Made by a program: the position numbers and the translations under genes. From an uncultured bacterium (lineage in GTDB: Bacteria > Cyanobacteriota > Vampirovibrionia > Gastranaerophilales > Gastranaerophilaceae): a stretch of DNA of 64,000 nt. The notes below the pieces were generated by a model that saw only the letters and a list, made by a program, of their open reading frames with translations, had not been told where the DNA came from and made no database searches. The DNA lies in NCBI GenBank assembly GCA_949284985.1, contig CASDWY010000029.1:124001-188000 (forward strand), in the 5' to 3' direction. Every line of letters begins with the position of its first letter. The first letter of the stretch is position 1. Shown here in pieces: positions 28,946-31,489 of this stretch.

Positions 28946-29416
28946 TTACTTATGATAAGGCTCTTTTGCCAAAATCCGCATAGCTCTGTACAGTTGTTCA
29001 ACAAGCATGACTCTTGCTAACTGATGCGGAAACGTCATCTTTGAAAAACTTAATCTATAGTTGGCTCTTGACTTAACTCTTTTCGAAAGCCCATTTGACC
29101 CGCCTATAACAAAAACAATCTCGTTCGTTCCTTCCATTGAAATTGCTCGAAGTTTAGCTGCAAAATCTTCAGAACTTAAACTTTTTCCTTCAATTTCCAT
29201 CGTTATAACAAATGAAGTCTGTTTTATTGCTGCCAGAATTTTTTCTCCCTCTTCCTCCATATATTTTTCATATAAGGCTTCATCAACAATACTATGAGCG
29301 GAAATTTCCTGTACACTAAAGGTGCAATATGCGCTTAAACGTTTAGAAAACTCCTCCATTGCAAGCCTAAATCCCGGCTCTTTCATTTTTCCAACAGCTA
29401 TTATTCTAATATTCAT
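28946..29416 (-). CDS. rlmH: 23S rRNA pseudouridine-1915 N3-methyltransferase
   Basis: A 156-aa SPOUT methyltransferase that modifies helix 69 of 23S rRNA. The start MNIRIIAVGKMKEP and the SAM-binding trefoil knot FVIGGSNGLSKRVKSRANYRLSFSKMTFPHQLAR (read in parts) are diagnostic, as is the C-terminus LVEQLYRAMRILAKEPYHK. Length matches E. coli RlmH (155 aa). The ATG is directly after the stop of the FlhA-like gene, so the two are almost certainly co-transcribed. Confidence 0.97.
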   Translation of the reverse strand: MNIRIIAVGKMKEPGFRLAMEEFSKRLSAYCTFSVQEISAHSIVDEALYEKYMEEEGEKILAAIKQTSFVITMEIEGKSLSSEDFAAKLRAISMEGTNEIVFVIGGSNGLSKRVKSRANYRLSFSKMTFPHQLARVMLVEQLYRAMRILAKEPYHK

Positions 29417-30871
29417 TTATATTACCGCTAAAACATCAAGTGCATATTCAGTAGAGATTTCTTCTTCTGCCACAACCCTCAAATTTGGTATTAACTGCAG
29501 CATAACCATTGCGACCATATGTCTTACCTCCAATGGCGCCAGCAAAATTATTTTATCCCTATTTATTGCAAAGTCCATTGCTAGTTTAATTAATTCATCT
29601 ATTATTGTTTTAAGCTTATTTCCATCAACTCTTACTATTGTTTGCTCATTGTTATCCATAAGGTTTATAATACTATCTATTGTTTCTGAAGAAAGTTGAA
29701 TAACCGATATTAAATTATTTTCATCTGCTATTGAAGCAGATATTTGCTTAGCTAGCGAAACTCTTATTTTATCAAGCAAGTCATCTTTTGCTGCTTCATC
29801 AGAAAAATCATTAATTTTTTCAAAAATATAAACAATATCTCTAATAGAAACTTGTTCCTTAATTAAATTTACAAGTAAATACTTTAATTCAGCAAGTGAA
29901 ATAAAATCCGGAATACAATTTTCGATAAGGTATGGATTTTTTTCTACTACAATATCAACATATCTGTTCAAATCATTATAATCAAAAATTTCATCAATAT
30001 TTTTTATGCATACAAACTCAAGTGCTAAAGCAATATATGCCTCAGGGGGCATGCCTTTTGTCCAAAAGTCTTTTGTATACTCTGCCTCAATCCAGACAAT
30101 TTCTCGTCCTGAAATTGGGTCATTATCTCTGATTGAGTTCTTGGGTAATCTCTCCAAAGACAACTCGTCTGTATAAAACATTAAATGATTAGGATATGCA
30201 CAAGCACTAAAAGCCTTAATTCCACGTACTTTTATACTAAATTCATTCGCTTGTAAAGCTTCATCTTCCAAAAACTTAACTTTAGGAATTATATAACCTG
30301 TTTCTTCTACTAATTTTTGCCTAGATTTTACTGTTTCCGCTATTAAAACAGCACCTTCATCTGGGTTTATCAAATCTAAAATTTCTTCCGAAAGTGCTAT
30401 CGAAAGCCTTTCTTCACCAATTGATGATGATACATATTCAGGTGACATAATTTTTGACAGCTGCTTTTTTAATTCATTTAATTCATTCATTTGCTCTAAC
30501 ATTTGAGTATTTAACTTTTCATGTTCTATAGCAGATGCTTCTTCCAATTTGGATTTTATACCATTTATTTTTTGTCGTTTTTCTTTAATTTTTTTCTGAA
30601 TATCAGAGCACTGTTGATAAGGATTATTGTCTTGAGTCAAAATTCTCTCCATTTTACTTTTAAAAAGTTCAACATCTTCACTCTGTACTTCATTATCTGA
30701 ATCATTTACATCAGTTACAAAAATACAATTATAACAATAACCGCGATCGGTATCTACTTCATGCATTGTATACAAGTCCCATCCAGAAATTGACATTTCA
30801 TTTAATAACTGCTCTAAACGCTCAGCATCATCAGACGGACATGTAATAATTTTATACTTAGCTCTTCCCAT
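29417..30871 (-). CDS. Soluble FlhA/SctV-like cytosolic domain fused to a DUF4177-like domain
   Basis: A 484-aa protein with three parts. Residues 3-55 (KYKIITCPSD, LLNEMSISGWDLYTM) resemble the small DUF4177 fold. Residues about 87-142 are a Lys/Glu-rich coiled coil. Residues about 155-484 match the cytoplasmic export-gate domain of FlhA/LcrD/SctV: GYIIPKVKF, NEFSIKVRGIKA, then PDFISLAELKYLLVNLIKEQ, VSIRDIVYIFEKI and a C-terminal ILLAPLEVRHMV, IPNLRVVAEEEI. The eight-helix membrane half of FlhA is absent and no hydrophobic segment exists. The ATG at 30871 has GGGGG 4 nt upstream. No other flagellar or type III secretion gene is in the window. It sits directly upstream of rlmH. Domain reading is confident; function is unknown. 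Confidence 0.8.
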   Translation of the reverse strand: MGRAKYKIITCPSDDAERLEQLLNEMSISGWDLYTMHEVDTDRGYCYNCIFVTDVNDSDNEVQSEDVELFKSKMERILTQDNNPYQQCSDIQKKIKEKRQKINGIKSKLEEASAIEHEKLNTQMLEQMNELNELKKQLSKIMSPEYVSSSIGEERLSIALSEEILDLINPDEGAVLIAETVKSRQKLVEETGYIIPKVKFLEDEALQANEFSIKVRGIKAFSACAYPNHLMFYTDELSLERLPKNSIRDNDPISGREIVWIEAEYTKDFWTKGMPPEAYIALALEFVCIKNIDEIFDYNDLNRYVDIVVEKNPYLIENCIPDFISLAELKYLLVNLIKEQVSIRDIVYIFEKINDFSDEAAKDDLLDKIRVSLAKQISASIADENNLISVIQLSSETIDSIINLMDNNEQTIVRVDGNKLKTIIDELIKLAMDFAINRDKIILLAPLEVRHMVAMVMLQLIPNLRVVAEEEISTEYALDVLAVI

Positions 30872-30924
30872 TTTACCCCCACTACTTTGCCTACATTTTA
30901 ACATATCAGCTTTTCAAGGGCAAT

Positions 30925-30973: not shown

Positions 30974-31489
30974 TTATGCATAATTTGGTGCAGTTCGTTT
31001 AATGCCTTCTTCTTCTGCTTTTTCAACTCTTTCATACTCTGCTTGAGCAACCTTAAGTTCAGATTCTATTTTTAATTTTCTGGTTTGAAGTTTATTTTCT
31101 TCTGCTGAAACTCTTTTTGACATATATTTTCCGAATTTTTCAAGTTCTTGTCTTAACAATGCATTGAATATATGATTATGGTCAGTAGGCATAGTATTAA
31201 CAATTCCTTGTTGTGCCAAAGCTGCTTGATTTCCTAAATACAATTGCATATTAGCTACTGCTCTACCACCTGCATTATTAATAGCTAGGTTGCTAAATCT
31301 AAGTTGATCCATAAATATCGACGCTGGAGATGTCATCAACTCGTCAGGAGTAATAATTCCATCCATAGCATTTGCACCTAACATAGATAAATCTTGAATC
31401 TTCTGTACAATTTGGTTTAACTGCAACTGTAGCATGTTCATCCTTGTATTCAAGTGTATTTTACGCATTGTAAAACATGCAAGTAACAT
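30974..31489 (-). CDS. Unknown protein with C-terminal coiled coil
   Basis: A 171-aa protein of unrecognised family. The ATG at 31489 follows TAGGAG with a 6-nt spacer. The N-terminal part is helical with a Met/Asn/Gln-rich stretch (NMLQLQLNQIVQKIQ; NMQLYLGNQAALAQQ). Residues about 125-160 form a charged coiled coil (EENKLQTRKLKIESELKVAQ). The first ten residues are not a convincing signal peptide. It lies upstream of the FlhA-like gene on the same strand but is separated from it by a strong terminator, so it is probably a separate transcript. A structural or secretion-related role is only a guess. Confidence 0.6.
   Translation of the reverse strand: MLLACFTMRKIHLNTRMNMLQLQLNQIVQKIQDLSMLGANAMDGIITPDELMTSPASIFMDQLRFSNLAINNAGGRAVANMQLYLGNQAALAQQGIVNTMPTDHNHIFNALLRQELEKFGKYMSKRVSAEENKLQTRKLKIESELKVAQAEYERVEKAEEEGIKRTAPNYA

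Follow-up and report, generated by a model that had tools for sequence, protein, structure and literature searches.

Gene C, the subject of this analysis, lies on the reverse strand of a 64,000-nucleotide stretch of DNA (the window) from a member of the Gastranaerophilales, a non-photosynthetic, mostly gut-dwelling sister group of the cyanobacteria. Its intact open reading frame encodes 484 amino acids counted from the ATG at 30871; an in-frame ATG at 30904 would give a longer frame, and the start at 30871 is preferred because a relative (L005) supports it. The gene, its parts and its downstream neighbour are arranged as follows:

28946-29416, reverse strand: rlmH, directly downstream, beginning at the base next to the gene C stop with no gap
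29417-30871, reverse strand: gene C, a soluble FHIPEP-cytosolic-domain protein of 484 amino acids plus stop (profile and structure matches)
30707-30871, reverse strand: probable DUF4177/DUF1737-like N-terminal domain, residues 1-55, with a strand-helix-strand-strand fold
30623-30706, reverse strand: variable, partly unordered stretch, residues 56-83 (pLDDT below 50 at 57-80)
30449-30622, reverse strand: hairpin or coiled coil of two long helices, residues 84-141 (AlphaFold2 model)
30407-30448, reverse strand: equivalent of the FlhA-L/SctV-L linker, residues 142-155; Pro144 corresponds to FlhA position 351, as in gate B (see below)
30194-30406, reverse strand: first part of D1, residues 156-226, bounded by alignment with E. 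coli FlhA
30050-30193, reverse strand: D2, residues 227-274, with the dimple residues replaced
29993-30049, reverse strand: second part of D1, residues 275-293, from the alignment
29756-29992, reverse strand: D3, residues 294-372, ring-forming in homologues and the most conserved part
29420-29755, reverse strand: D4, residues 373-484, the least conserved of the ordered parts

The cytosolic ring of FlhA/SctV is familiar as a portion of a membrane protein. Residues 127-475 of protein C correspond to positions 311-655 of the 657 in the FHIPEP profile (PF00771), a significant match (E=2.8e-49, with a score of 168.7 bits where the cut-off is 29.1), and its best solved match by phmmer is the Bacillus subtilis FlhA cytosolic domain (FlhA-C) 3mix (E=2.9e-27). 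The AlphaFold2 model (pLDDT 83.5, pTM 0.66) agrees: all 50 PDB matches listed are FlhA/SctV cytosolic domains, the top one being 6ch1 (E=2.9e-22, target TM 0.82). The protein misses the NCBIfam equivalog cut-offs for both FlhA (150.7 against 772.1 bits) and SctV (80.3 against 692.25). It lacks profile positions 1-310, and with them the membrane domain that carries the FHIPEP loop at the N-terminus of a whole gate protein, and no membrane half lies upstream. Protein C is a complete FlhA/SctV cytosolic domain detached from its membrane half, as the first-pass annotation had claimed. The upstream open reading frame (171 amino acids, 30974-31489) is unrelated to export gates and has no match in Pfam or PHROG; it sits between clpP and gene C, and does so in the sister genome (L005) as well.

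That annotation had also placed a coiled coil and a DUF4177-like domain ahead of the gate domain. The coiled coil is borne out by AlphaFold2, which predicts helices at residues 84-111 and 114-141. The N-terminal domain, modelled as 62 residues with a pLDDT of 85, gave DUF1737/DUF4177 proteins among its best named Foldseek matches in a viral library (E of about 0.006-0.02) and no significant match in the PDB. Sequence matches to DUF4177 (PF13783) are sub-threshold: they occur in 28 of 50 family members of protein C (best E=0.0081), and one member taken singly missed the cut-off with 15 bits against a gathering score of 25. The structure search points towards a DUF4177-like assignment that the sequence score does not secure, and we regard it as reasonable rather than established. 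Among the papers searched, none names DUF4177 together with FHIPEP, in keeping with the earlier statement that no described protein of this architecture was known to its author.

The same fusion recurs among relatives. In a sample of the phylum, gene C, scored at E<=1e-45, is present in 172 of the 173 Gastranaerophilales genomes and in no other genome; every one of 286 genomes sampled within the order has FHIPEP matches. Gene C is missing from ten genomes that belong to other orders of the class and have full-length gates. In a smaller sample it was found in 36 of 39 genomes; those without it are G135, G230 and G001 (89% complete), the last having a shorter orphan of 281 amino acids. Its length (484-492 amino acids) and domain order are constant in dozens of independent genomes. 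Gene C is under strong purifying selection, with a dN/dS of 0.01-0.05 for the whole protein in close pairs, values that are rough because dS is high. Among the 16 flagellin-negative genomes, 14 retain gene C and all retain gate B. Strong selection, together with retention where flagella are gone, indicates that gene C is a working part and not a relic.

Questions concerning the whole host genome were answered through family searches, which gave three FHIPEP matches: the flagellar FlhA (gate A), a second full-length gate (gate B) and protein C. The host is flagellate, having flagellins as well as the full flagellar FlhA, and its gate A gene adjoins fliPQR-flhB. Gate B (G000:C12:45536-47512) has a full membrane half and is encoded in a fliE-fliF-fliH-flhA-fliI cluster. 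Within the host, protein C matches gate B at E 4e-42 and gate A at 5e-17. In a tree that included E. coli FlhA, B and C were split from A and the gates of the outgroup orders at 99/94, and all C proteins formed one clade (100/100); the final tree omits three long C rows, and an earlier tree containing them agrees. Trees constrained to group C with A, or C with the outgroup gates, were about 7 log-likelihood units worse (p-AU 0.046 and 0.052). Since these alternatives are only borderline rejected, the analysis favours an origin of C within the B lineage but does not prove it. In G014 (L136:362-4587) the genes for gates A and B are adjacent and run in opposite directions. Other detached FHIPEP cytosolic modules, each in a single genome, were observed at L122:1542-3323, L124:1472-2479, L123:1424-2062, L074:3604-4245 and L114:1099-1944. 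Three of the five are short (about 212-281 amino acids), and in two, by eye, hydrophobic helices replace the normal membrane half; the L122 module, the only one placed in the tree, fell beside B with weak support.

Gate B is part of a second export apparatus (system B), complete and derived from the flagellum, which is found in Gastranaerophilales with or without flagellin. In the host its loci are:

G000:C12:40648-48924 (L092:6648-14925)
G000:C1:4803-5378
G000:C29:201913-202938

The flhB copy of system B lies about 14 kb past the end of the window. In the 39-genome sample gate B was found in all but one genome, G007 and a few others being incomplete assemblies, and gate A was limited to flagellates; flagellates mostly carry two copies each of FliP, FlhB and FliF, and non-flagellates a single copy. 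G122, G219 and G239 gave only a C-like match and no gate B, yet FliP is present, so the missing gate is probably an assembly gap. In the non-flagellate G003, where no flagellin was found, system B includes FliE, FliF, FliH, FlhA-B, FliP, a FliM/N-like protein, FliK-like and FlgE/F/G/B-like proteins and a FliA-like sigma factor adjoining FlhB, with FliO, FliQ and FliR assigned by sequence reading only. Earlier work regarded the genes remaining in non-motile members as an incomplete set of flagellar genes (PMC4040986), and two flhA genes appear among listed flagellar genes (PMC3787301). A literature search returned no title or abstract treating type III secretion in Gastranaerophilales, Vampirovibrionia or Melainabacteria. 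The B-cluster proteins encoded between fliF and fliH, in the fliG position, have no significant family match (L115:12492-14025, L092:9839-10762 and L094:8233-9249); one of them gives a faint FliG_C match (E=0.17). Elsewhere in the host, a flagellin N-terminal domain (G000:C28:23102-23512) lies within an open frame of 3249 amino acids (2238 in G002:C16), possibly a giant flagellin-like protein.

A residue table against E. coli FlhA, whose numbering is used here, indicates what protein C has kept and lost. It keeps R391, G399, P403, D456, W465, D553, E559 and R579; like gate B, it has Pro at position 351 and usually Met at 354. The GYXLI glycine, G368, is replaced by Ser, and in the dimple F459 is replaced by Thr or Ser, L461 by Lys, Arg or Gln, and T490 most often by Arg. 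In Salmonella FlhA these four are dimple or dimple-controlling residues (PMC10965912). To judge from these replacements, the chaperone-docking dimple of protein C is lost; gate B too departs partly from the FlhA dimple and GYXLI pattern. In D3, 29 of 80 columns are conserved at >=80%, 18 of them with the gate B residue, against only 7 of 99 in D4. Among the ordered parts, conservation peaks in D3 (3.42 bits) and is weakest in D4 (2.50 bits), and D2 is poorly conserved. Protein C has retained both the ring-forming subdomain and the linker signature. Ring contacts of the SctV and FlhA nonamers lie in D3 and the linker (PMC8223533, PMC8213127), and the soluble domain of YscV nonamerises alone (PMC9163089). 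The residue pattern fits, short of proof, a ring former that would no longer dock chaperones in the usual way, and D3 conservation may instead reflect fold stability.

We tentatively propose, at slightly under even chances, that protein C is a soluble paralogue of gate B, able to form a ring, and that this ring regulates or assists apparatus B. In this proposal, a cytosolic ring domain from the gate B lineage would have had its membrane half replaced by the DUF4177-like domain and hairpin. Copies of the protein would join by way of D3 and the linker to make a ring, either alone, mixed with the B gate or stacked beneath it. Such a ring might serve apparatus B, for example by controlling substrate access or by recruiting partners through its N-terminal domain, and would not be a usual chaperone-docking platform. 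Oligomerisation, physical partnership with B and a regulatory role are what we infer. The first-pass annotation had offered a repurposed ring, a chaperone-docking decoy or a remnant of lost flagella, and the first of these is the best. Co-occurrence of B and C alone does not prove a link, since both are near-universal in the order, and gene C is not essential to B, since other orders have B-type gates without it and G135 and G230 have B and no C. A two-ring gate, in which a soluble ring of C, fused to its small N-terminal domain, gates or sorts substrates for a filament-less secretion machine derived from the flagellum, is conceivable, if rather unlikely; to our knowledge a two-ring export gate is not known in any type III system.

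The main rival to the accessory ring, less likely but a serious contender, is that protein C has been repurposed as an oligomeric scaffold, combining the old ring fold with a new N-terminal domain in a housekeeping role outside protein export, for example one linked to RNA or the ribosome. Gene C nearly always lies amid housekeeping genes, outside export operons: its neighbours in other lineages are ricT, clpP, bamA-ompH with a nucleoside phosphorylase, or infC-rplT (names other than rlmH and clpP come from reading the sequences). Loss of the dimple would suit such a role, as would near-universal presence, which housekeeping genes share. However, the neighbours change between lineages and so carry little information. 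The two-gene unit with rlmH described earlier is real as a gapless adjacency, but the pairing is found in the host genus only; rlmH is not part of the proposed system, and its operon was rejected as a functional clue. Against the scaffold, too, gene C is confined to an order whose checked genomes all have apparatus B, and the residues common to C and B concentrate in D3.

Protein C might alternatively act as a cytosolic decoy or adaptor for export chaperones or substrates, which FlhA-C binds. The FlhA-C fold is complete and the D456 equivalent is kept, but replacement of F459, L461, T490 and the GYXLI glycine, together with the poor conservation of D2, makes the decoy reading improbable and disfavours the earlier suggestion to that effect. 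Protein C may bind at a site other than the dimple, as YscX does in the SD4-SD4 cleft (PMC9163089).

Service to the flagellar export gate A is less probable still, and unlikely as a sole role. In G015 (L116:7329-13020) and G009 (L169:8889-14576) gene C is directly upstream of fliJ, a fliK-like gene, flgD and flgE. This order is a weak clue, because G019, from the same family, does not have it and about 147 bp separate gene C from fliJ; it is also absent in other lineages. Moreover, gene C is kept in 14 of the 16 genomes without flagellin, and protein C is less similar to A than to B.

The remaining possibility, that gene C is what is left, without function, of a flagellar gate gene, or else a split gene or a sequencing error, has only the missing membrane half in its favour and is refuted: the full-length architecture with its conserved N-terminal domain repeats across many independent genomes, the upstream frame is unrelated, dN/dS is low, gates A and B are intact in the flagellate host, and the flagellin survey shows gene C near-universal regardless of flagella.

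A FlhA/SctV-type ring domain is therefore found as a free, strongly conserved protein across nearly a whole bacterial order, coexisting with a second complete export apparatus that had been tallied as an incomplete flagellar set in non-motile members. If protein C acts on apparatus B, this would be a new way of building or regulating a type III export gate and would point to a universal, uncharacterised secretion system of common gut bacteria. A type III specialist would find the architecture and its near-universal retention surprising; the evidence on function is indirect.

Compared with FlhA-C (PDB 3a5i, 3mix, 6ch1, 7amy), protein C is alike in D1-D4 order and fold and shares R391, G399, P403, D553, E559 and R579. 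It differs from FlhA in lacking the transmembrane half, in its altered GYXLI motif and chaperone dimple, in the added DUF4177-like domain and hairpin in front, and in having only about 20% identity to the structures. The N-terminal domain may resemble DUF4177/DUF1737 domains, to judge from its predicted fold and named Foldseek matches, whereas its sequence score stays sub-threshold. The gate domain also has the fold of the SctV cytosolic domain (MxiA 4a5p, CdsV 6wa6, YscV 7qij, SsaV 7feb), and its linker, with Pro and Met in place of E351 and W354, is comparable to SsaV with its M346 and P348 (PMC8223533); SctV proteins, however, are full-length injectisome membrane proteins whereas protein C is soluble and far under the NCBIfam cut-offs. 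Its closest relative is gate B, with which it has 18 of its 29 conserved D3 residues in common, and from which it differs in having no membrane half and in being encoded outside the fliE-fliF-fliH-flhA-fliI cluster.
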